A stretch of 46,395 nucleotides of DNA from a virus, in the IMG/VR virus record IMGVR_UViG_3300027736_000075, positions 1 through 46,395 of that record; one strand, given 5' to 3'. The notes under the pieces are model-generated. The model saw nothing but the letters and a program-made list of their open reading frames with translations, was not told the origin of the DNA and searched no databases. Positions 250 to 46,395 of this stretch are shown one piece after another. The stretch's first letter is position 1. Every line of letters begins with the position of its first letter. The position numbers were made by a program, and so were the translations under genes.

Positions 250-420
250 ATGAAATGTGAAGCGTGTGATGTTATCTTATCAACTAAAGAGTCTGTACGT
301 AGATTTAAGGTAAGTAAGGATTTTGTAAATCTATGTAATAAATGTCTTTCCACAATCTCTGATGAAGTGGAGGTAATAGAAGGCAAGACAGAGGAACAGG
401 AAGAAAATGAATATGAATAA
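250..420 (+). CDS. Small zinc-ribbon protein, 56 aa
   Basis: A 56-residue ORF beginning MKCEACDV and ending in a Glu-rich tail. Two CxxC pairs (C3/C6 and C29/C32) are spaced like a zinc ribbon. The stop codon overlaps the ATG of the primase gene (TAATG), a sign of translational coupling. The molecular role is unknown. Small CxxC proteins are common next to phage replication genes and may bind nucleic acid or protein partners (inference). Confidence 0.6.
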   Translation: MKCEACDVILSTKESVRRFKVSKDFVNLCNKCLSTISDEVEVIEGKTEEQEENEYE

Positions 421-1139
421 TGGCTAAATTTGTTAAGCATGAAAGTTGTCCTTCTTGCGGAAGCAGAGACAATCTTGGCAGATATTCAGATGATTCCGCA
501 TGGTGTTTTGGATGTGGCTATTTTGAACGTAGTAGCCTTAGCCCTTTTGTAGGAGAACGTGATGGGCAAATTGAAATCAATGATAACGGAGTTGAATTTC
601 CCAGAGATTCAGAAAGCAATTTGGACAGCAGAGGACTTGAATGGCTTGCTAGGTATGACATCAGAGCAGAGGAAGCTCTTCGTGCAGGCTTTAAATGGAG
701 TCCCTACTGGGAACAACTCCTCATGCCCTTCAGAGACAGAGATGGACAACTCTGTTGTATCCAAGCCAAAAACTTTAACCCTAAACGAGCCAGCAAAGCC
801 AAGTACTACAACGTTGGTAACAAAGCGGAACATCACACCATTTATGGTAAACAAGAAAAAGGACAACTTGTCTTAACTGAAGATGCTGTTTCTAGCCTCA
901 AGGTAGGGCGTCAGAGCGATTCAATGCCCCTCCTTGGTACATACATAGCCAAAGATAGGTTGGTCGCTTTAAAGGCGGTCTATCAACAATTGGTGGTGTG
1001 GCTAGATAGCGACAAGTGGCGTGAAGCCCGTAGTATAGCAGATGCTGCAAAACTGTTAGGCTTTGATGCTAAAACAATCTTAACATCTCTTGATCCAAAG
1101 GAGTATTCAGATAATGATATACGACATTACTATATGTGA
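420..1139 (+). CDS. DNA primase, zinc-binding and TOPRIM domains (T7 gp4 N-half-like)
   Basis: This 239-residue protein matches the primase half of T7 gp4, which makes RNA primers at the replication fork. The N-terminal zinc ribbon shows C10, C13, C29 and C32 (CPSC...CFGC). The TOPRIM fold follows, with E154 in VLTEDAVSS and the DxD pair D196/D198 in VVWLDSD, the expected metal-binding residues. T7 fuses primase and helicase in one chain. Here the primase ends near the TOPRIM domain and the helicase is a separate gene from about 2159, with four small genes between. The start is the ATG overlapping the upstream TAA. The primase assignment is secure; priming specificity cannot be read. Confidence 0.92.
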   Translation: MAKFVKHESCPSCGSRDNLGRYSDDSAWCFGCGYFERSSLSPFVGERDGQIEINDNGVEFPRDSESNLDSRGLEWLARYDIRAEEALRAGFKWSPYWEQLLMPFRDRDGQLCCIQAKNFNPKRASKAKYYNVGNKAEHHTIYGKQEKGQLVLTEDAVSSLKVGRQSDSMPLLGTYIAKDRLVALKAVYQQLVVWLDSDKWREARSIADAAKLLGFDAKTILTSLDPKEYSDNDIRHYYM

Positions 1140-3397: not shown

Positions 3398-3603
3398 AAT
3401 TTCCAAAGCACAGGGCTAATTGTTTTGTAGTGGAACGACGTGTGTTAGATAAGATCGTTTCCTACTCAACCGTGGGTGTATTTCCCACATACGAATCAGC
3501 AGACAATTTTGCTGGTGCTTGTCAACAAGAGTTTTTAGAGAAAGGCTACCTTGAAGATGACTTTTCATTTAAGGTGTGTATGACAACCTACTATGACGCA
3601 TGA
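3394..3603 (+). CDS. Hypothetical protein, 69 aa
   Basis: A small protein (MKFPKHRANCFVVERRV...) whose ATG overlaps the helicase stop (ATGA), and whose own stop overlaps the ATG of the polymerase gene in the same way. It has two Cys residues far apart, no membrane segment and no motif I recognise. Its position between helicase and polymerase and its tight coupling to both suggest a replication-linked role (inference only). Confidence 0.6.
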   Translation: MKFPKHRANCFVVERRVLDKIVSYSTVGVFPTYESADNFAGACQQEFLEKGYLEDDFSFKVCMTTYYDA

Positions 3604-4724
3604 ATATTTTAGCATTAGACACAGAAACAACAACCCATAACAAAGGAAACCCTTATGACGGACGTAATGAATTGGTATGTATCTCTTTTGCCACAGATAC
3701 TGGCAGTGGTGCTGTGCGTGTGGACAATCTTGGGGCTATCTTACCTAGGATTGAAGCTAGCGACTTGGTTGTGGGATTCAATTTCAAGTTTGATCTCCAC
3801 TGGATCAAAAATTATAAGGTCTATCAACTAAACGACAAACACATTTGGGACGTACAGATTGCTGAATTTATTCTGTCTAACCAAACCAACAGATTCCCAA
3901 GCCTTAATGAGACATGTGAGCGTTATGGGCTGGAAGCAAAGTTGGACGTAGTTAAAACAGAATATTGGGACAAGGGAATTGATACAAAAGACATACCTTG
4001 GGACATCCTGTCATCATATGCAACTAAAGATGCCGAGCTAACACTTGCTTGTTACCATGCTCAGAAGAAGTTTATGACCCCTGCACAGATTAAGCTGTGC
4101 CATTTGATGTGTGAAGATTTAAAAGTATTACAGGAGATGGAAGCCAACGGCATTCCATTTAACGAAGAGTTATGTGAACAACGAGCCAAGGAGGTTGATG
4201 ACAAAATATCAGAGATTAAAGGAAAACTCACCAATATCTATCCTAACACTCCTATTAACTTTGCCTCTAATGATCATCTTTCTGCCTTTCTATATGGCGG
4301 CACAGTTAAAGAAGATGGTAAAGAGCATACTGGGTTTTTTAAGACTGGGATAAAAGCGGGTCAACCTAAATATAAAAATATTATTATTGAGCACAAGCTA
4401 CCACGGCTATATGAACCCCTCAAAGGTTCTGAGATGGCTAAACAAGGCAATTATGCCGTAGATGAAGGGACACTACGTAAACTCAAGGGTAAGAAAGATT
4501 TAGTAAATACTTTGTTAGAACTTTCCAAATTGGAAAAATTAAACGGGACATACTACAATGGTCTTATCAAACTTCGTAAAGAAATGAATTGGGAACAAGG
4601 AATATTACATGGTAACTTTAACCAAACGACAGCGCAAACAGGTCGGCTATCGAGTTCTAGACCAAATTTGCAGAATTTTGCTAGCGAACTCCAAGACATC
4701 TTTATAAGTAAATACAATGAATGA
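3600..4724 (+). CDS. DNA polymerase family A, N-terminal fragment: 3'-5' exonuclease and thumb
   Basis: This cistron carries the proofreading exonuclease and the first part of the polymerase domain of a T7/Pol I-type enzyme. Exo I is LALDTETT (D7, E9), Exo II is GFNFKFDLHW (D65) and Exo III is SYATKDAE (Y140, D144). The thumb follows, then TAQTGRLSSSRPNLQN at 344-359, the conserved stretch just before the palm. The chain stops at FISKYNE, where intact relatives run directly into motif A. The rest is encoded in frame from 4902, after an inserted small gene. The two products must presumably assemble to give an active enzyme, since neither has all the catalytic motifs. Confidence 0.92.
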   Translation: MNILALDTETTTHNKGNPYDGRNELVCISFATDTGSGAVRVDNLGAILPRIEASDLVVGFNFKFDLHWIKNYKVYQLNDKHIWDVQIAEFILSNQTNRFPSLNETCERYGLEAKLDVVKTEYWDKGIDTKDIPWDILSSYATKDAELTLACYHAQKKFMTPAQIKLCHLMCEDLKVLQEMEANGIPFNEELCEQRAKEVDDKISEIKGKLTNIYPNTPINFASNDHLSAFLYGGTVKEDGKEHTGFFKTGIKAGQPKYKNIIIEHKLPRLYEPLKGSEMAKQGNYAVDEGTLRKLKGKKDLVNTLLELSKLEKLNGTYYNGLIKLRKEMNWEQGILHGNFNQTTAQTGRLSSSRPNLQNFASELQDIFISKYNE

Positions 4725-4902
4725 AAATGATCAACTGGAATATAACGACGCCCTTGTTTACTTTGCTTCTATGATTCAGAAATATGGAAGTAAACGAGTC
4801 CTAATGGATTTTCAAACAAGTTATCCTGCTTATTTTCATCAACTTAAACAAGACATAAATATGTTTCCAGTAAAACCAATAGCAGCTTTGCTTAAACGCT
4901 AA
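4717..4902 (+). CDS. Small ORF inserted between the two halves of the DNA polymerase, 61 aa
   Basis: MNENDQLEYNDALVYF to AALLKR, a soluble, probably helical protein with no nuclease motif. Its ATG overlaps the stop of the N-terminal polymerase fragment by 8 nt, and its TAA overlaps the ATG of the C-terminal fragment (TAATG), so all three are translationally coupled. It resembles in style the short phage proteins of the form YNDALVxFASMIxKYG, but I cannot assign a function. It carries no HNH or GIY-YIG signature, so it is not an obvious homing endonuclease. It is too short for a group I or II intron or an intein. It could be a passenger gene, or a linker subunit of a three-part polymerase. Confidence 0.7.
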   Translation: MNENDQLEYNDALVYFASMIQKYGSKRVLMDFQTSYPAYFHQLKQDINMFPVKPIAALLKR

Positions 4903-5615
4903 TGCTTATTCAATGTGATGCTGCACAATTAGAGTGGCGAACTCTCTTAGAGCTTGCTAAAGACGATATAGGTATACAAGAAATATTAGGAGGCGAAGAT
5001 ACCCATGCAAAGAATCAAAAAGCTTTTGGACTCCCCTCTAGGCTCATCTCTAAGATTTTTTTGTTCCGCACTATTTATCGGGGTAATGGTTGGAGTTTTG
5101 CCAATGATCCTGATTTTATGCATGTATCATCTTCTTCCCAGTTTTGGGATGAGATGAATGAGAAGTTTTATACCAAGTACAAAGGTATAAACAAATTACA
5201 TAACCAATGGAAAGACACGGTTATGAAAGGTCAGCCCATAATTGGTCCAATGGGTAGGTCATGGAAATTGGAAATGAAACGAGACTTCAAAGGAGAACTC
5301 AAGATTCCTTGGACAACGTTAACCAATTATCCTGTCCAAGGTACAGGGGCAGACGTTATGATGATGGCTAGAATTATGGCTAAGAAAAGGATTCAACGTG
5401 CTAATATTGCTTGTGATTTTATTTCTACAGTGCATGACAGCATCGTGGTTGACACGAGAAAACAGCACCTTGAAGCTATCAGAGAAATTTTTACTAGCGT
5501 TTTCGATGACTTGCCAAGTAGGATTAACTCTGTATTTGGTTATTCCTGGACTGTACCAATGGCTTGCGAAAGTAAGTTTGGACCTGATATGAAGAATATG
5601 CAGAAATTTGCTTGA
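4902..5615 (+). CDS. DNA polymerase family A, C-terminal fragment: palm and fingers
   Basis: Contains the nucleotidyl-transfer centre. Motif A is IQCDAAQLEWR (D6). The O-helix motif B is R47xxxK51xxxF55xxxY59, followed by RG. Then come NYPVQGTGAD (142-151) and motif C VHDS (H178, D179). F55 occupies the place of Phe762 of E. coli Pol I, the residue that discriminates against dideoxynucleotides, where T7 has Tyr. The start ATG at 4902 overlaps the stop of the inserted gene and has no clear Shine-Dalgarno, so translation probably depends on coupling. It is in the same reading frame as the N-terminal fragment, with a 180-nt insertion between them that contains in-frame stops. Confidence 0.92.
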   Translation: MLIQCDAAQLEWRTLLELAKDDIGIQEILGGEDTHAKNQKAFGLPSRLISKIFLFRTIYRGNGWSFANDPDFMHVSSSSQFWDEMNEKFYTKYKGINKLHNQWKDTVMKGQPIIGPMGRSWKLEMKRDFKGELKIPWTTLTNYPVQGTGADVMMMARIMAKKRIQRANIACDFISTVHDSIVVDTRKQHLEAIREIFTSVFDDLPSRINSVFGYSWTVPMACESKFGPDMKNMQKFA

Positions 5616-22688: not shown

Positions 22689-23030
22689 TTATCCAACGTT
22701 ACGTTCAAAATGGGGGCAATCTACTAAACTTTTAAAGTTTCCGCCCCAACGATTTTTACTGTTTAAACTTTCCCAATAAACTCCCAAAGGAGTTAAAATG
22801 TTTTTGTCCCATATAATTTGACCACTCATAAAGAAATTCAGGTCAATGGCACATCTTTTTAGATGGATAGAATTTAGCGTTTTAGAACGCCCTGTTTTAA
22901 CGTATATGGCTTGTTGTTCTGGAGTACGAGCAAGCTCTCCCCCAGTTACAGTAAATCCCATATCTGTTGCATAGCGAATAAGTTTGCACATGTCTAGCAA
23001 AAACTCAGCTTGTTCATTCATTAAGCTCAT
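22689..23030 (-). CDS. Endolysin, M15-family D-Ala/L-Ala peptidase-like
   Basis: A 113-residue peptidoglycan peptidase. The zinc site of the M15 (VanY/T5 endolysin) family is visible: H56 and D63 in SIHLKRCAIDLNFF, and H107 in DCPHFE near the C-terminus, with RWGGNFKSL before it. Early helices contain ARTPEQQAIY, also typical. It lacks a signal peptide, so it needs a holin, and the 3TM holin gene lies directly upstream with a 4-bp overlap. It cleaves cross-bridge or stem peptides in the cell wall at lysis. Confidence 0.88.
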   Translation of the reverse strand: MSLMNEQAEFLLDMCKLIRYATDMGFTVTGGELARTPEQQAIYVKTGRSKTLNSIHLKRCAIDLNFFMSGQIIWDKNILTPLGVYWESLNSKNRWGGNFKSLVDCPHFERNVG

Positions 23031-40064: not shown

Positions 40065-40204
40065 ATATTTGCCCTGATTGTTATGAATATTCATTGTGCT
40101 TAGAATGTAAACAACTCTTTGAGGAGGAAAATGAGAAAAAATATATTGGTTCGGGTGAGGATGTTGTGTTAACTGATGAGGGAGAAACAGAATGTTTATC
40201 TTAG
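40061..40204 (+). CDS. Small zinc-ribbon protein, 47 aa
   Basis: MNICPDCYEYSLCLECKQLF and an acidic C-terminus. Two CxxC pairs (C4/C7 and C13/C16) make a compact zinc knuckle. Its end overlaps the next gene by 13 nt. A partner- or nucleic-acid-binding role is likely but not shown. Confidence 0.55.
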   Translation: MNICPDCYEYSLCLECKQLFEEENEKKYIGSGEDVVLTDEGETECLS

Positions 40205-40614
40205 AATGGGATAAGAAAAACGACACTAGTTCAGGTAAAAATGGCACTATACGAGAAGACAACGATCAATACATCTGTCGTGTGCAAACATGGCTTATGT
40301 ATAGTTGTGCGTCATTGTCTTTGCATGACTTTAGTTCAGGCATTAGACAACTAGACTCTGCTGATAAAGTGGACAAATTCTTTAAGTTTGTTGAAACCAT
40401 CGACGATAAAGATTGGACACCTAAAGAATTCTATTTCTTGTTATCCGATTATCAACTGAGATATGGCAATATTGGCTATAAATTGTTAGTTCGTAATAGC
40501 CATGTGCGTAAGCGTGATGTGTACAAAAACAAATCCCATTCAGGCAATCGTGTGCATTTATTCCGCTATTCTGCGGATAAAGACTTTCCAAAGGTGTTGC
40601 AATGCAAATATTAA
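40192..40614 (+). CDS. Unknown protein, 140 aa
   Basis: A soluble helical protein: MFILEWDKKNDTSSGKNG ... VQTWLMYSCASLSLHDFSSG ... TPKEFYFLLSDYQLRYGNIG, with a basic C-terminus (NSHVRKRDVYKNKSH). I do not recognise a family. It precedes the amide-ligase genes in the same operon with short overlaps, so it may belong to the same pathway. The ATG at 40192 follows GAGGGAGAAACAGA. Confidence 0.6.
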   Translation: MFILEWDKKNDTSSGKNGTIREDNDQYICRVQTWLMYSCASLSLHDFSSGIRQLDSADKVDKFFKFVETIDDKDWTPKEFYFLLSDYQLRYGNIGYKLLVRNSHVRKRDVYKNKSHSGNRVHLFRYSADKDFPKVLQCKY

Positions 40615-40976
40615 CAGCATATTTAGGAGTAGATCCCTATGATTTCAACAGTATAAATCATTGGACAACTAAAATTGATCCTGATCAAGCCCTCATTGAT
40701 GAGATAATTGAGCGTTTTCGCATGATGCTCAGTAAAAAAGACATTGGCTATTGGCTCATTACAATTCAGGAATTCAATCCCCATTCCTTAGAGTTAAAAG
40801 AAGTTAAAGTCTATCATGGTGGCGTGGAACAGCGAGAACGCATCATCTTAAATGCCCCTGCTAAACATGAGAAAAAGAAATACACCACTTTGCAGGAAAC
40901 ACTTAACAACTTAAACCTCAACTTTGATGATTTGCATCATGAACTAGAGGAAAATGAAGAGGAACACGAAGAATGA
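40602..40976 (+). CDS. Unknown protein, 124 aa
   Basis: MQILTAYLGVDPYDFNSINHW, then a helical region with an IDPDQALIDEIIERFRMMLSKKDIGYW block, a beta stretch (LELKEVKVYHGGVEQRERIIL), and an acidic, Glu/His-rich end. No recognised motif. Overlaps both neighbours. Confidence 0.6.
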   Translation: MQILTAYLGVDPYDFNSINHWTTKIDPDQALIDEIIERFRMMLSKKDIGYWLITIQEFNPHSLELKEVKVYHGGVEQRERIILNAPAKHEKKKYTTLQETLNNLNLNFDDLHHELEENEEEHEE

Positions 40977-41365
40977 TTTCATTAACATTTCCATCTAAAC
41001 GACCCCAACCTGTGCCTGTCTTAGAAAAGACATGGTACAATTCTCCGCAAGACTTAATGAGTTTGGGTATAACTTCTCAGGAATACAGCAGACGAGACAG
41101 CATTATTAAAAACCTCTATACTGAGTTTGGTCTTGCTGTCGGTGATACCTGTTATCCAACAACCAAGGATGGTTACAAACAATATGACGGATGTCTCATC
41201 CAATATATTTGTAAATCATACAAAGATTTTGGTAAAGAACCTTGGCCCAAGAATGACAATCCCATGATCGTTACATTTTCTCCAATCAAAGACCCTTCCA
41301 CAACTGTGTTCTGTACTACTAATTATCTTAGTAAGAAAAACACTCACATGAATGTTTGCTCATGA
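40973..41365 (+). CDS. Unknown protein, 130 aa
   Basis: MISLTFPSKRPQPVPVLEKTW, with SRRDSIIKNLYTEFG, CYPTTKDGYKQYDGCLIQYIC and PWPKNDNPMIVTFSPI. The pattern resembles a small mixed alpha/beta domain with several Cys. It starts in the stop of the preceding gene (ATGA), and its stop overlaps the ATG of the glutamine amidotransferase. I cannot assign a function; physical coupling to the amidotransferase suggests it belongs to the same pathway. Confidence 0.6.
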   Translation: MISLTFPSKRPQPVPVLEKTWYNSPQDLMSLGITSQEYSRRDSIIKNLYTEFGLAVGDTCYPTTKDGYKQYDGCLIQYICKSYKDFGKEPWPKNDNPMIVTFSPIKDPSTTVFCTTNYLSKKNTHMNVCS

Positions 41366-42015
41366 GTATATTAGCATATAGCCCATGGGGTAATGGCACA
41401 AGTTGCTATCCCTTTGATGAATTGTATGGCAATTGCGTAGATGCCTCTGTCATTGGACTGAAAAAGGCCGATGCTCTCCTGTTATGGGGTGGTACAGACA
41501 TCCATCCATCCTATTACAGTCAGAAACACAACATTAACAACCATGCCCCTGCCAACCCATCTGAACGAGATGTATGGGAGTGGCAGGCTATGAAGTATTG
41601 TAAAGCAAACAATATACCTATCATTGGTGTGTGTCGTGGTGCTCAGTTTCTATGTGCCTTTGCAGGTGGTTCTTTGATACAACATTGCACAGGACATGGA
41701 GTTGACCATTACATAACAACCAACACCGATGAAAATTTTATTGTGACATCGTCGCATCATCAGATGTTAAATCTTAGAGGCACAGACTATGAGTTAATAG
41801 CGTGGTCTTCTAAGAATTTGAGCGATAGGTATGAAGCAGAAACTAAGAAAAATATACAACTATTAGAGTGGAAAGAACCTGAGATTGTATATTTTCCTAA
41901 AGTTAGAGGCTTGGCTATACAGGGTCATCCCGAATGGGCGTCTCCAAATAGCAAGTTTGTAGCATTTTGTTTAGAACTTGTATCAGATTATTTGTATGAG
42001 GAAACCACACCATGA
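41362..42015 (+). CDS. Class I glutamine amidotransferase-like hydrolase (peptidase C26 type)
   Basis: A 217-residue protein with the triad of class I amidotransferases and gamma-glutamyl hydrolases: C91 in IIGVCRGAQFL (nucleophile elbow), H189 and E191 in IQGHPEW. The N-terminal WGGTDIHPSYY is typical for the C26/PuuD-like branch, which cleaves gamma-glutamyl bonds. It may therefore trim or release a gamma-glutamyl product, or supply ammonia to a partner ligase. The start is the ATG overlapping the upstream stop; an earlier TTG at 41356 adds only two residues. Confidence 0.87.
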   Translation: MSILAYSPWGNGTSCYPFDELYGNCVDASVIGLKKADALLLWGGTDIHPSYYSQKHNINNHAPANPSERDVWEWQAMKYCKANNIPIIGVCRGAQFLCAFAGGSLIQHCTGHGVDHYITTNTDENFIVTSSHHQMLNLRGTDYELIAWSSKNLSDRYEAETKKNIQLLEWKEPEIVYFPKVRGLAIQGHPEWASPNSKFVAFCLELVSDYLYEETTP

Positions 42016-42761
42016 GACTAGGCAGCGACCCCGAAGTATTCTTGCAAGACAAGAAAGGCAATCCAGTTAGTGCAATTGGATATATCAACGCAGACAAATG
42101 GAATCCTTTGCAGATTCCTGATATGCCCCAAGGGTATACATTACAAGAGGACAATGTATCGTTAGAGTATGGCATCCCTCCAGCATCCGATGCTGATGAG
42201 TTTGTTCAACATATTCAGGCGGTAATGGAAAAGAGCAAAGAATATGTCAAAGGTCTATCATTCTCTAAGTTGTCGTGCATTGTGTTCCCTGAGAAACAAA
42301 TGCGTCATCCGTTAGCCCATGTTTTCGGTTGTGAACCTGACTTTGATGCATGGACTAAAGAAACAAACAAAAAACCTGAGCCTCCTCATCCTTTCATGCG
42401 TAGTGCAGGCGGTCACATCCATGTGGAAACTAAAAAAGATCCCGTTGATGTCATCAAGGCTATGGATTTATTCCTAGGTGTGCCCTCTGTATTGATGGAC
42501 AATGGTGATATGCGTAAGCAATTGTATGGCAAAGCAGGTGCTTTCCGTGCTAAGGCTTATGGTGTAGAATATCGTACACTATCCAACTTTTGGATATTTG
42601 ATGAGCAACTTATTCGTTGGGCTTGGCACAATAGCCAACGAGCAGTAGATTGTGAGTTTGATGTGTCAGTTGAGCAAACTCGTATACTTGAGGCTATTAA
42701 CAATAACAATAAACAAGTAGCAAAAGATTTGGTAAATGACTACAACCTTGAGGTAATTTAA
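42012..42761 (+). CDS. COOH-NH2 ligase, glutamine-synthetase-fold amidoligase (type 2)
   Basis: A 249-residue ATP-dependent ligase of the phage COOH-NH2 ligase type-2 group. The nucleotide and metal blocks of the fold are visible: GSDPEVF (D6, E8), EDNVSLEY (E46, D47, E52), AGGHIHVET (H135, H137), and YGKAGAFRAKAYGVEYRTLSNFW (R179, E186, R188). This family joins a carboxylate to an amine, making an amide or peptide-like bond through an acyl phosphate. Substrates are unknown. Overlaps the C26-type gene by 4 bp. Confidence 0.85.
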   Translation: MRLGSDPEVFLQDKKGNPVSAIGYINADKWNPLQIPDMPQGYTLQEDNVSLEYGIPPASDADEFVQHIQAVMEKSKEYVKGLSFSKLSCIVFPEKQMRHPLAHVFGCEPDFDAWTKETNKKPEPPHPFMRSAGGHIHVETKKDPVDVIKAMDLFLGVPSVLMDNGDMRKQLYGKAGAFRAKAYGVEYRTLSNFWIFDEQLIRWAWHNSQRAVDCEFDVSVEQTRILEAINNNNKQVAKDLVNDYNLEVI

Positions 42762-43367
42762 ATGTTATTCCATTCATCCAACTATGATGACATAATCAAG
42801 TATTACAAGAATACTTATGTCAAATTTAAAGAAACTGGAGACCGTCTGTTCTACATTCGTACAGTAGACAGACATTCAGTACGAGGCATTGACCAAGACG
42901 ATACAGAGTTTGAGTTGTGGCTTTCCGATGACCATCCGTATGAAGTAGACTACATCCTGCCCAATAAGAGTTTCTTCCAGTTCAACAAGCGAGCCTGTCT
43001 ATTGCAACGCATCCCAGCCAAGCAATTTCAACGAGGTCTCTCAGGAAACAACACAAAAATCACTGCTCTAACTAAAGCAGGTTCTAATAATAACTTAGAT
43101 CTGAATTTTGAACTTCTTAAAAGTTTTGTAGCCAAACAACATTTCCCTGATTTCATCACAGCAGTTAGAAACAAAGGCAGATTTGCTTCTGTGGCATTGT
43201 CGTCTAGGTTTGCATATGTTCCTGATCGGGCATCCATCATGTTAGACAACACAATTGTTGCTCAAGTAGACAAAGACAACAAACGAATTGTTATGAGTTA
43301 TAAGATTTTTTATCCCGAAGTGTGTAAGTTAACCGAAGATAGCAACTATGAGGTAGTATATGCATAA
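42762..43367 (+). CDS. Conserved unknown between the two amidoligases, 201 aa
   Basis: MLFHSSNYDDIIKYYKNTYV, then SVRGIDQDDTEFELWLSDDHPYEVDYILPNKSFFQFNKRA, LLQRIPAKQFQRGLSGNN and RFAYVPDRASIMLDN. It is a soluble alpha/beta protein with no catalytic motif that I recognise. The blocks VDYILPNKSFFQ and RIPAKQFQRGLS look strongly conserved, as in a binding or scaffold protein. It follows the first amidoligase without spacing and overlaps the second by 8 nt. It could be a substrate carrier or recognition subunit of the pathway (inference). Confidence 0.65.
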   Translation: MLFHSSNYDDIIKYYKNTYVKFKETGDRLFYIRTVDRHSVRGIDQDDTEFELWLSDDHPYEVDYILPNKSFFQFNKRACLLQRIPAKQFQRGLSGNNTKITALTKAGSNNNLDLNFELLKSFVAKQHFPDFITAVRNKGRFASVALSSRFAYVPDRASIMLDNTIVAQVDKDNKRIVMSYKIFYPEVCKLTEDSNYEVVYA

Positions 43368-44127
43368 AATCCATGACATATTTCAACTACGCAATAGCGA
43401 GTTGGATGTTGCTAGCAACTTTATTGCTGGCATAGAATGTGAGATTGAGTCTGTTCGTAGTAAAATTGACTTCCCTAATTTCCGTGTAACGGAAGATGGT
43501 AGTTTGCGTAATGATGGTGTAGAATTTATTTCTACTCCATTAGAACAAGAGATGTTGTTACGATCATTCAAGAATCTACACGCAACGATTGAACATTACG
43601 AAGTAGATGAAGCATTCTCTCCTCGTACATCAACTCATGTACACATCAACTGCCGTTCATTGAACGCTGACCAAACCAAGCAATTGGTATTGTTGTATGC
43701 TTTATTCGAGGAATTCTTTTTCCTCATGGTTGATAAGAATCGTCGTGCCAATGTGCATTGTGTTCCATTAACAGAAACATACCTACCAGTTACCTATCGT
43801 AATGCTATCACTAGCATGGTAAATCACTGGCACAAGTATACTGCATTGAATCTCTTACCGTTGGCTAAACAGGGTTCAGTAGAGTTTAGACATTTACAAG
43901 GTACTAATAGTTTTGAAGATTTGGCAGCATGGCTCACTTGTCTTAACAATCTATGGTCTCTTGCTAAAACAGAGCGAGTAGATGAGCAATCATTAACCAA
44001 TGAGGTACAACTGTATGATTGGTGGTTTAAAATCTTTGGTCACTCCCCTAAGATTATGACATTGCAACCCGCAATGAAGAACATCATTGGGAATTCTCTC
44101 CTTGATGTAAAATTCTCTTTGATTTAA
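43360..44127 (+). CDS. Second amidoligase, amidoligase_2-like
   Basis: A 255-residue protein of the same glutamine-synthetase-like fold, but from a different subfamily than the first. Conserved blocks: FIAGIECEIES (E26, E28), EDGSLRNDGVEFIST (D46, E55), STHVHINC (H93, H95) and GSVEFRHLQGT (E175, R177). All metal- and ATP-binding residues are in place. Two different ligases in one operon suggest two successive condensations. The start ATG lies in the end of the preceding gene. Confidence 0.85.
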   Translation: MHKIHDIFQLRNSELDVASNFIAGIECEIESVRSKIDFPNFRVTEDGSLRNDGVEFISTPLEQEMLLRSFKNLHATIEHYEVDEAFSPRTSTHVHINCRSLNADQTKQLVLLYALFEEFFFLMVDKNRRANVHCVPLTETYLPVTYRNAITSMVNHWHKYTALNLLPLAKQGSVEFRHLQGTNSFEDLAAWLTCLNNLWSLAKTERVDEQSLTNEVQLYDWWFKIFGHSPKIMTLQPAMKNIIGNSLLDVKFSLI

Positions 44128-44136
44128 GGAACTGTT

Positions 44137-45363
44137 ATGTGTGGTATTGTTGGTGTGATAGCCAAAAATAAATCGGGAATCGTTAAACAAATCGAGGACT
44201 CGTTCTTTCAACTGTTGTATGCTGATGTGTTGCGTGGTGATGATTCTACGGGCATCATAGGTGTAGAACAAGACACAACTTTTCATATCTCTAAAGATAC
44301 GACAAGTGCGTATGAGTTTCTCCCTGAGTTTGATGAGTCTCCTGTATCCAAGTCAATGTGGCGTGATGGTCGTGCCTACATTGGTCACAATCGTAAAGCA
44401 ACCATGGGTAAGGTTGATGCAGAGTCAGCACATCCGTTTGTTGTTAACAATGAGTTTGCTATGGTACATAACGGTACATTGTACAATCATAAACTATTAG
44501 CAGACACCGAGGTAGATAGCGAAGCCCTCACCATGGTGTTAGCCAAAGCCTTTGAGACAGCCAATTATCGTAATGCATTAGAAGATACCTTGGGTAAGGT
44601 TACTGGTGCATATGCTGTAGCAATGTATGACCAACGATCTAATTGTGTTAGGTTGTTACGCAACAGAGAGCGTCCAATGGCTTTTGTTGAGACAAACAAT
44701 GCTTGGTATTTTGCTAGCGAAGCGGCTATGCTCTATTGGATATTGTCTCGTAATGGTTATCTAACAACAGACTTAGACATTAAGCCTGTTGCTGAACATT
44801 CTTTAATGACATTCAACTTAGATGACATGACTCTGACAAGTGAGTTCATTACACCAAAAAAGATTTTGCCTCCTATGAAACCTTATACAGCTCATGGGGG
44901 GCAACAGCCTACGATTACCTCTCTTATTACGAAGACGCCTTTTGATGATGGAGTATCTAAGAATAGGTTTAAGAAATTTCGTAAGGAGTATCTTCATCAA
45001 GGAATTGAATTTTGGTGTGAGGATTTTGTTGAAACAAACTTTCCTAAAACTATTGAAATGGGTGAAACAAAAATAACACTTATGGGGGTATGTGATTCGT
45101 TGTTTTTAGACCACATAATAGCGACTGATGTGGATATTACTGAACTATATCTACGTGAAAATGACTTGACAGATAGGCTTTGGTATGGTAAAATAGTAGA
45201 TATGTCGTATGATTCGACAACCAAACGAATACATATTAAACTCCAGAATGCTTCCCCATTACCTGTATCGTATAGGAAAAATTCTCCCCTACCTGTAATT
45301 GATGCTGAATACATCAGAAAGAAATTAGATGAAGAAGAAATTGAATTCCATTCTTTGCACTGA
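44137..45363 (+). CDS. Class II glutamine amidotransferase (Ntn hydrolase) with unknown C-terminal domain
   Basis: The N-terminal 230 residues are a glutamine amidotransferase: C2 is the catalytic nucleophile after removal of Met, then RGDDSTG (33-39), GHNRKAT (83-89), HPF and VHNGTLYNH (110-118), as in the glutaminase domains of GlmS and asparagine synthetase. The remaining about 180 residues carry no synthetase motif and no isomerase domain; they contain a Lys/Arg-rich FRKEYLHQG helix. It could supply ammonia to one of the neighbouring ligases, with the C-terminal domain as a docking part. AAGGAACTGTT precedes the ATG. Confidence 0.87.
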   Translation: MCGIVGVIAKNKSGIVKQIEDSFFQLLYADVLRGDDSTGIIGVEQDTTFHISKDTTSAYEFLPEFDESPVSKSMWRDGRAYIGHNRKATMGKVDAESAHPFVVNNEFAMVHNGTLYNHKLLADTEVDSEALTMVLAKAFETANYRNALEDTLGKVTGAYAVAMYDQRSNCVRLLRNRERPMAFVETNNAWYFASEAAMLYWILSRNGYLTTDLDIKPVAEHSLMTFNLDDMTLTSEFITPKKILPPMKPYTAHGGQQPTITSLITKTPFDDGVSKNRFKKFRKEYLHQGIEFWCEDFVETNFPKTIEMGETKITLMGVCDSLFLDHIIATDVDITELYLRENDLTDRLWYGKIVDMSYDSTTKRIHIKLQNASPLPVSYRKNSPLPVIDAEYIRKKLDEEEIEFHSLH

Positions 45364-46033
45364 CAAAGGCTTAACAAGCATTAGTCTGCGTAAAATTGCT
45401 CGTGGTCTATCAACAATGGTAGGTCGCAAGATTTTTCGTACAACTAAACTAAATCACTTCCGTCCACAATTCAAGTATGGACAAAGTGTTAACAAACTGG
45501 TACAATACCAGTGGCTCAAAGACAATAACATTCCTTCATTAGAATTTACAACGGACATACATGAAGCACTAGAATGGTGCAATGAAGGTGCTGTAGTGTT
45601 TGGTCGTAAGTATCTGAATGCCTCATGTGGCAAGGGTATTGTTGTCATTGAAAAACCTGAAGACATGTTGTTGTGTCCTGTGTACACTAAGTACAAGAAA
45701 AAGAAACGAGAGTTTCGTGTTCATGTGTTTAAAAATCAAGTTGTAAGTGTTGTAGAAAAAAAACGTCGTAAGGAGTTTAATGGTGAACGAGATACCAAAA
45801 TTAGGAATCTTGCAAACGGTTATGTCTTTGTGCAAGCCGTGGTGGACGAACCTGTTGGTTTACGGGATTTGGCTATTCATGCTGCTCGTGTGTCTCCTTC
45901 CGATTTTCGTGGTGTTGACATTGGTTACAATAAGCTCAAAGACGAACTGTTTGTAATCGAAATCAACTCAGCCCCTGGCATTCAAGGTTCTAACATTCAA
46001 AAATATCTTGACAAAATGGTGAATTATGTTTAA
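45329..46033 (+). CDS. ATP-grasp ligase
   Basis: A 234-residue ligase of the ATP-grasp superfamily. In order: N-terminal strand LNSILCTDKG and TSISLRKIARG, the glycine-rich loop ASCGKGIVVI (99-107), KREFRVHVF (E128, R130), VVEKKRR and the metal-binding GVDIGYN (D197) and FVIEINSAPGIQG (E211, N213). It resembles the RimK/peptide-ligase type of small ATP-grasp enzyme, which adds an amino acid or amine to a carboxyl end. It overlaps the amidotransferase gene by 35 nt, and the next gene by 8 nt. Confidence 0.86.
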   Translation: MKKKLNSILCTDKGLTSISLRKIARGLSTMVGRKIFRTTKLNHFRPQFKYGQSVNKLVQYQWLKDNNIPSLEFTTDIHEALEWCNEGAVVFGRKYLNASCGKGIVVIEKPEDMLLCPVYTKYKKKKREFRVHVFKNQVVSVVEKKRRKEFNGERDTKIRNLANGYVFVQAVVDEPVGLRDLAIHAARVSPSDFRGVDIGYNKLKDELFVIEINSAPGIQGSNIQKYLDKMVNYV

Positions 46034-46395
46034 ACTAAGTATAACACACAAAAACTGTTACAATGAAATAGGTCAATCCAATCCTTTACGATGGAGAATA
46101 ATGTTTAAAGAAAAAGATACATTACATTCTCAAAGTGGATTACTGAAATGTAAAGACTTCTTTAACGATGTAGTAGCATGGAAAGTTAAGAAAGCAAAAT
46201 TCTGTATCTACAAATTTAATAATGCTATTAAGTTTAATCGTTTTGGTGTTTACTTATTGTTAACTAATGTGTATGATGCCGATAGGTTTATTGAAAGTGT
46301 TGAATGTGCTCTTAACTCTAAATTGTATAATGACTTGCAAGTGTCATTAAAGGTATACAAACAAGGTAAAGATAAAGTAGTAGTGCTTATTCCTA
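46026..46395 (+). CDS. Unknown protein, 3'-truncated by the window edge
   Basis: The ATG at 46026 overlaps the end of the ATP-grasp gene by 8 nt and the frame is open to the end of the window (at least 123 residues). It begins MFKLSITHKNCYNEIGQSN, has FFNDVVAWKVKKAKFCIYKF and ends with a segment rich in Lys and Val (KVYKQGKDKVVVLIP). No recognised motif. It is coupled to the amide-ligase operon and so may be part of it. Confidence 0.6.
   Translation, partial: MFKLSITHKNCYNEIGQSNPLRWRIMFKEKDTLHSQSGLLKCKDFFNDVVAWKVKKAKFCIYKFNNAIKFNRFGVYLLLTNVYDADRFIESVECALNSKLYNDLQVSLKVYKQGKDKVVVLIP

Follow-up and report, generated by a model that had tools for sequence, protein, structure and literature searches.

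Relation to described phage cassettes

Several phages carry a group of genes that has been named the "peptidoglycan modification cassette" (PMC5498523; PMC11945000) and whose proposed purpose is to block superinfection or to prepare lysis (PMC5498523; PMC11945000; PMC10580990). The proposals in PMC5498523 and PMC11945000 rest on Iyer 2009 and Hardies 2013. Members are RIO-1, PSA-HP1 (PMC5498523), phiEco32, 7-11, LUZ24, PaP3, tf, PA11 and CW02, and the cassette is also found in OM43 phages (PMC10580990). Mass spectrometry of a polyethylene glycol concentrate of SU10 lysate detected the ATP-grasp protein, the amidotransferase and the YtfP/GGCT protein (PMC4281155). Because these three were detected, cassette proteins are made in SU10; the sample was not gradient-purified and virion membership is not implied. 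The DNA analysed here (the window) is the whole 46,395-nucleotide virus record IMGVR_UViG_3300027736_000075, which carries a new, complete-looking copy of the cassette at 40192-46395. The kind of cassette is not new: it has been described since 2009, with a predicted role in attaching amino-acid groups to some target of the infected bacterium. A sequence-only reading of the window had recognized kinship to phiEco32-like groups, and the cassette is indeed the same one; the reading omitted its literature name (PMC5498523; PMC11945000). It also knew of no demonstrated product, and the papers searched likewise yielded none for the time since the 2009 prediction.

The window copy consists of ten open reading frames (ORFs) packed on the + strand with intergenic gaps of -35 to +9 nt. 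They encode a C26 hydrolase, two amidoligases (ligase 1 and ligase 2), a class-II glutamine amidotransferase (GATII), a RimK-like ATP-grasp ligase and five unknown proteins (u1 to u5). The COOH-NH2 ligase, a u4 homologue, Amidoligase_2, the class-II amidotransferase and ATP-grasp are common to the window and the published cassette. The gene order is that of PaP3, tf, 7-11 and GAP52, and the cassette adjoins primase and helicase genes. Unlike the published cassette, the window has C26 and lacks the cyclotransferase GGCT, and u1-u3 and u5 stand in for two 300-aa genes that PaP3, tf and 7-11 have 5' of ligase 1. Alcaligenes phage vB_Af_QDWS535, which is the closest cultured phage as judged from portal (57%) and terminase, bears the cassette too, but its ligase 1 is only 40% identical, GGCT is present and no C26 gene is listed in the fetched region. 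Ligase 1 of the window is at most 46% identical to that of any named phage, and megablast of the cassette region against phages gave no match.

Co-occurrence, gene order and spread

We surveyed 49 loci with no less than 4.5 kb of sequence ahead of the ligase 1 start and no less than 6.5 kb running on from it. The loci were picked by ligase 1 similarity, several are closely related, and profile iteration, at E 1e-3, drew on these same ORFs. Of the 49 loci, 48 carry ligase 2, 48 GATII, 48 ATP-grasp, 45 C26, 37 u4 and 17 u5. The order C26 - ligase 1 - u4 - ligase 2 - GATII - ATP-grasp was observed, irrespective of u5, in 58 of 93 loci. Because the parts co-occur, mostly in one fixed order, the cassette is, as judged from gene content, one pathway. 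Phage genomes are mosaic and dense, and unrelated auxiliary genes might have come together by chance, but the counts for ligase 2, GATII and ATP-grasp and the common order refute such a cluster, which we regard as practically untenable. The sequence-only reading had named ligases scattered without the other genes as one finding that would speak against its operon; the survey did not show such scatter, L022 being the sole locus with ligase 1 alone, and the operon is confirmed. Scans with short peptide patterns returned no close homologue of ligase 2 or u4, which reflects a limit of the method, as these genes sit in every near locus.

The ligase 1 search retrieved 315 phage records and at least 591 viral loci, and only ten contigs, all from metagenome-assembled genomes (MAGs), in a set of 84,980 species of bacteria and archaea. 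Because ligase 1 is abundant in viruses and so rare elsewhere, its family is, by this distribution, a phage family. Cassette-bearing phages span unrelated groups, namely LUZ24-like, phiEco32-like, RIO-1, crAss-like and cyanophage (Leptolyngbya phage). The survey fixes the core parts list as C26 or GGCT, ligase 1, u4, ligase 2, GATII and ATP-grasp. Solving a pathway so widespread would reveal either a new phage route of host-wall remodelling or a new conjugation chemistry, and the E. coli phages that carry the cassette (Bas88 and relatives) permit direct testing.

Reduced clusters were seen in three loci on MAG contigs. In L090 only u5 relatives stand beside ligase 1. In L092 and L095, u5 stands with ligase 1 and C26, a GGCT lies nearby, and so does a gene of similar look (391 and 467 aa, respectively).

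Enzymes and probable gamma-glutamyl chemistry

Ligase 1 (42012..42761, + strand) is of the phiEco32-like COOH-NH2 ligase type 2 (PF14395, 1e-13; PHROG 3815, 3e-72) and is a predicted glutamine-synthetase-fold amide ligase with its HxH at H135/H137. Ligase 2 (43360..44127, + strand) is an Amidoligase_2 protein (PF12224, 4e-7; PHROG 7469, 4e-38) with its HxH at H93/H95. Conservation of catalytic residues was counted in 75-93 relatives drawn from viral and bacterial contigs. H135 and E186 of ligase 1 are kept in 93/93 relatives, and E26, E28, H93, H95, E175 and R177 of ligase 2 in 88/88.

GATII (44137..45363, + strand) is a class-II, or N-terminal nucleophile (Ntn), amidotransferase that matches GATase_6 at 1.5e-18 and the GlmS/PurF structures. 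Its domain contains C2, R86, N112, G113 and D127, with C2 kept in 82/82 relatives, and its C-terminal half is divergent. One lineage (L070:13966-14628, L063, L081, L083 and L054) has, after ligase 2, an additional short ORF that matches the GATII profile.

The ATP-grasp ligase (45329..46033, + strand) is of the RimK/MptN/CofF alpha-L-glutamate-ligase type (Pfam RimK, 6e-9; PDB RimK, 1e-10). E211 is found in 82/82 relatives and N213 in 79/82. The enzyme passes the Pfam RimK cut-off (36.1 vs 21 bits) and fails that of NCBIfam rimK_fam (26.6 vs 143.4 bits); because the latter score is below the subfamily cut-off, we consider it a RimK relative and do not file it as RimK. NCBIfam MptN matches at 6e-9, also under its cut-off. 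RimK, MptN and CofF, all L-glutamate adders, are its nearest families and give its best profile matches. It shares with them the ATP-grasp core with E211/N213, but it is short (234 aa) and scores well under the family cut-offs.

The C26 enzyme (41356..42015, + strand; Pfam Peptidase_C26, 2e-19) is gamma-glutamyl-hydrolase-like, of the PuuD/SpuA type. It passes the Pfam cut-off (70.4 vs 20.5 bits) and has the class-I amidotransferase fold with its Cys, His and Glu set, the Cys being present in 77/77 aligned relatives and the His and Glu in 81/81. By PDB profile, its closest characterised kin are the gamma-glutamyl hydrolases Lin1909, SpuA and PuuD; the 7d4r-series entries we take to be SpuA. 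NCBIfam NF045546 (gamma-glutamyl-CDP-amidate hydrolase) matches at 4e-15, under its cut-off.

These alignments bear out the claim of the sequence-only reading that five enzymes with complete catalytic residues are encoded in overlapping genes. The residues it named are present and near-invariant, GATII C2 and ATP-grasp E211/N213 stand as it gave them, and the family assignments support its proposal of three ATP-dependent ligases. Its numbering of the C26 set, C91/H189/E191, holds for a start at ATG 41362 and becomes C93/H191/E193 from TTG 41356. It had also assigned the two amidotransferases to ammonia supply or gamma-glutamyl trimming. For the class-I enzyme C26, trimming appears likelier than ammonia supply, because its nearest kin are gamma-glutamyl hydrolases such as SpuA and PuuD, the gamma-glutamyl-CDP-amidate hydrolase match being in line with this.

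A gamma-glutamyl-cleaving enzyme, C26 or GGCT, is present in 46 of 48 loci. That nearly every cassette carries one is new here. GGCT itself was found in 12/48 loci; in the window it was not found and C26 is present. GGCT is named in published descriptions, yet it is not defining for the cassette, because the listed member 7-11 (locus L005) shows none in its fetched region. One lineage (L023, L074 and L076) has two tandem GGCT genes together with C26, lacks u4, and is rearranged to ATP-grasp - C26 - ligase 1 - GATII - ligase 2. The gamma-glutamyl theme, as suggested by the kin of C26 and by an ATP-grasp enzyme near the L-glutamate adders, gives the strongest pointer to the chemistry.

The pairing of C26 or GGCT with ligases resembles the Puu/Spu, butirosin and CDP-amidate routes, and it suggests that the product could be a small diffusible metabolite for counter-defence, signalling or nitrogen handling. 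As known from the general background, the Puu/Spu polyamine pathways (PuuA/PuuD, SpuA) likewise pair a ligase with a C26 gamma-glutamyl hydrolase. Their ligases are of other families, however, and the window adds ATP-grasp and GATII; a polyamine substrate is not implied. PncB/PrsA genes adjoin the cassette in Leptolyngbya phage and 7-11 has a nicotinamide phosphoribosyltransferase gene, which also favour a metabolite; public virocell omics of PSA-HP1 exist, with proteomes of PSA-HP1 and PSA-HS2 under MSV000083626 and PXD013204. Against it, the genes that recur beside the cassette include no exporter, carrier domain or tailoring enzyme. We hold a small metabolite to be doubtful. No PADLOC model of a known anti-phage defence matched at 0.01.

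Conserved unknown proteins and cysteine motifs

Between the two ligases lies u4 (42762..43367, + strand), a conserved unknown with the motif RxPAxQ[YW]xRG. Its profile reaches PaP3 gp47, tf gp20, GAP52 gp031, 7-11 gp104, Bas88_76 and RIO-1 gp12. Because these homologues always sit between both ligases, u4 is, by its position, a core cassette part, which is new here. Its AlphaFold model has a predicted local distance difference test (pLDDT) score of 95, and Foldseek gave a weak match to tandem SH3/KOW-like barrels (best E 0.04), a weak hint of its fold. We considered u4 as a GGCT substitute, since the two are anti-correlated (p 2e-5), and rejected it: the anti-correlation may be a lineage effect, and the model gives only the SH3/KOW-like matches.

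The last gene, u5, has its first part at 46026..46395 (+ strand) and bears a KC[KR]D motif. Its relatives are 224-242 aa long, and Cys44 is invariant in 34/34 members. Modelled through its homologue in L008, u5 gave a pLDDT of 96 and a predicted template modelling score (pTM) of 0.93, with no PDB fold match at E <0.1; u5 also had no match in PADLOC or Pfam. A predicted structure of high confidence that lacks a PDB match and carries an invariant cysteine is new here. The order Q19/C44/His suggested a papain-like triad, which we rejected as no fold match backs it. The second Foldseek match of u5 in the viral library was a 290-aa GAP52 protein (E 0.09), equal in length to gp028, a cysteine-motif (CFG) protein upstream in the GAP52 cassette, and is a lead towards kinship of u5 with these proteins.

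Such proteins are a feature of the known cassettes. In seven named phages (PaP3, tf, 7-11, GAP52, Bas88, cr108_1 and RIO-1) the cassette is led by one or two divergent Cys-motif proteins. A C[FYC][GA] motif, picked after inspecting the data, lies within the first 52 residues in 13/13 leader proteins, against 0.2 expected by shuffling and 38/883 control ORFs. Divergent leaders with an N-terminal CFG/CCG motif at the head of known cassettes are a new finding here. These leaders (CFG/CYG/CCF-type) are mostly tandem pairs and lie at L004:5042-6972, L005:4982-6968, L006:5172-6985, L098:4146-5974, L101:4311-6487, L100:4442-6343 and L099:3220-4062. In the window, u1 (40192..40614, + strand, 140 aa) has no Pfam or PHROG match and clusters by phmmer with proteins of L008, L011, L013, L014, L064 and L073 that bear CCG/CAS motifs; these mates are the CCG-type Cys-motif proteins upstream in other cassettes. 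It is followed by u2 (40602..40976, + strand, 124 aa, acidic C-terminus), whose family occurs in 9 loci, and u3 (40973..41365, + strand, 130 aa), with a family in 14 loci. Both are confined to the nearest relatives of the window, and a role of the 40192-41365 unknowns as carriers or specificity factors, proposed earlier, found no support.

The cysteine motifs raise the question of whether proteins are tagged with a peptide or amino acid. The targets would be host or phage proteins, and u5 or the Cys-motif leaders would serve as carrier or acceptor. RimK, the best profile match of the ATP-grasp enzyme, is a protein glutamate ligase, a divergent Cys-motif protein heads every named cassette examined, and u5, with its invariant Cys, is accompanied by only ligase 1 and C26 in L092 and L095. 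Set against this, no acceptor site was identified, hhalign gave no signal of homology between u5 and the Cys-motif proteins (E 0.7), and u5 is without the family matches searched for above. We hold a protein acceptor to be doubtful, about as likely as a small metabolite. It is still less probable that the cassette is an amino-acid/peptide conjugation system and not a wall modification at all, with its own Cys-motif proteins (u5 and the CFG/CCG leaders) as carrier or acceptor and u4 as an adaptor between the ligases.

Proposed pathway and its acceptor

On balance, we favor a cytosolic, probably early-expressed pathway that would make several amide bonds by glutamate/glutamine chemistry and remove gamma-glutamyl groups. 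The enzymes are probably cytosolic because their N-termini, examined by eye, lack the look of signal peptides and because GATII needs its N-terminal Cys2. The RimK/MptN-type ATP-grasp enzyme would join a carboxylate acceptor to an amino acid, probably L-glutamate, and the two amidoligases would make two further amide or gamma-glutamyl links. GATII would free ammonia from glutamine for one ligation step, and C26 (GGCT in other cassettes) would strip a gamma-glutamyl group that serves to activate or protect. Such use of a gamma-glutamyl group and its later removal take place in butirosin biosynthesis and in the polyamine pathways Puu and Spu. The proteins u4 and u5 may act as scaffold, carrier or specificity proteins. 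We infer all substrates and the order of the steps; the gene order, co-occurrence, family membership and conserved active sites on which they are built were observed directly.

The likeliest single acceptor is, tentatively, a cytosolic peptidoglycan precursor, and the slight preference we give it comes solely from its being the standing proposal (PMC5498523; PMC11945000). A protein and a small metabolite come next, level with each other, and virion and DNA last. Unusual peptide links on wall precursors might exclude superinfecting phages or guide the phage's own endolysin. The endolysin candidate of the window, at 22689-23030, is an M15-type peptidase, which is consistent with such a role. Every named host seen among the phage matches is Gram-negative or a cyanobacterium, which we also count in favor of the wall. 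Nevertheless, endolysin types vary among cassette phages, with M15 here and another annotated endolysin in 7-11 and GAP52, and there is little time for wall rebuilding within a short lytic cycle.

Further points weigh against a wall precursor or against the pathway itself. No wall-biosynthesis gene, of Mur or lipid-II type, is among the recurrent neighbours of the cassette, and the ATP-grasp enzyme is nearer to RimK/MptN than to D-Ala-D-Ala ligase, which disfavours a wall-precursor acceptor. GATII could be a peptidase instead of an ammonia source. The PDB profile search did not confirm the glutamine-synthetase-like fold of the ligases against solved structures. Sampling by ligase 1 measures completeness only for genes near ligase 1, and nothing in this analysis shows a substrate or product. 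With these points weighed, modification of peptidoglycan proper remains a tentative proposal.

Contig ends and neighbouring genes

The tenth gene, u5, had been read as ending at the contig end, 46395. It runs past that end, and an in-phase open frame at 1-249 completes it; if the contig is circular, the last part of u5 would be 1-249 on the + strand. When joined, the frame matches nine relatives at their two ends but falls short of them by about 21 codons (63 nt) at the join; it stays in phase despite this gap, and both contig ends lie inside one gene. Because the u5 frame is open across both contig ends, the contig appears to be close to a full genome, circular or circularly permuted.

The cassette runs on towards a toprim-type primase-like gene (420..1139, + strand), whose homologue family lies 3' of the cassette in 64 loci, and a DnaB helicase gene after it, at 2213. 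Since the primase-like gene comes after the cassette in relatives too, gene order carries on from one contig end to the other. This position beside replication genes might point to DNA hypermodification, in which amide groups would be put on modified bases. The CmoX/CmoY system, in which CmoY amidates carboxymethylcytosine, is a precedent that also uses a phage ATP-dependent amide ligase (PMC12783734). CmoY, however, is an asparagine-synthetase homologue and so of another ligase family, no CmoA/CmoX was seen in the window, and a base-handle enzyme is absent among the window ORFs examined and among the recurrent cassette neighbours. We consider DNA hypermodification very improbable, and the virion and DNA taken jointly as acceptor improbable. 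Elsewhere in the window, a split gene, an intron or an assembly error may lie behind the two ORFs in which DNA polymerase A appears, 3600-4724 and 4902-5615, with about 180 nt between them.

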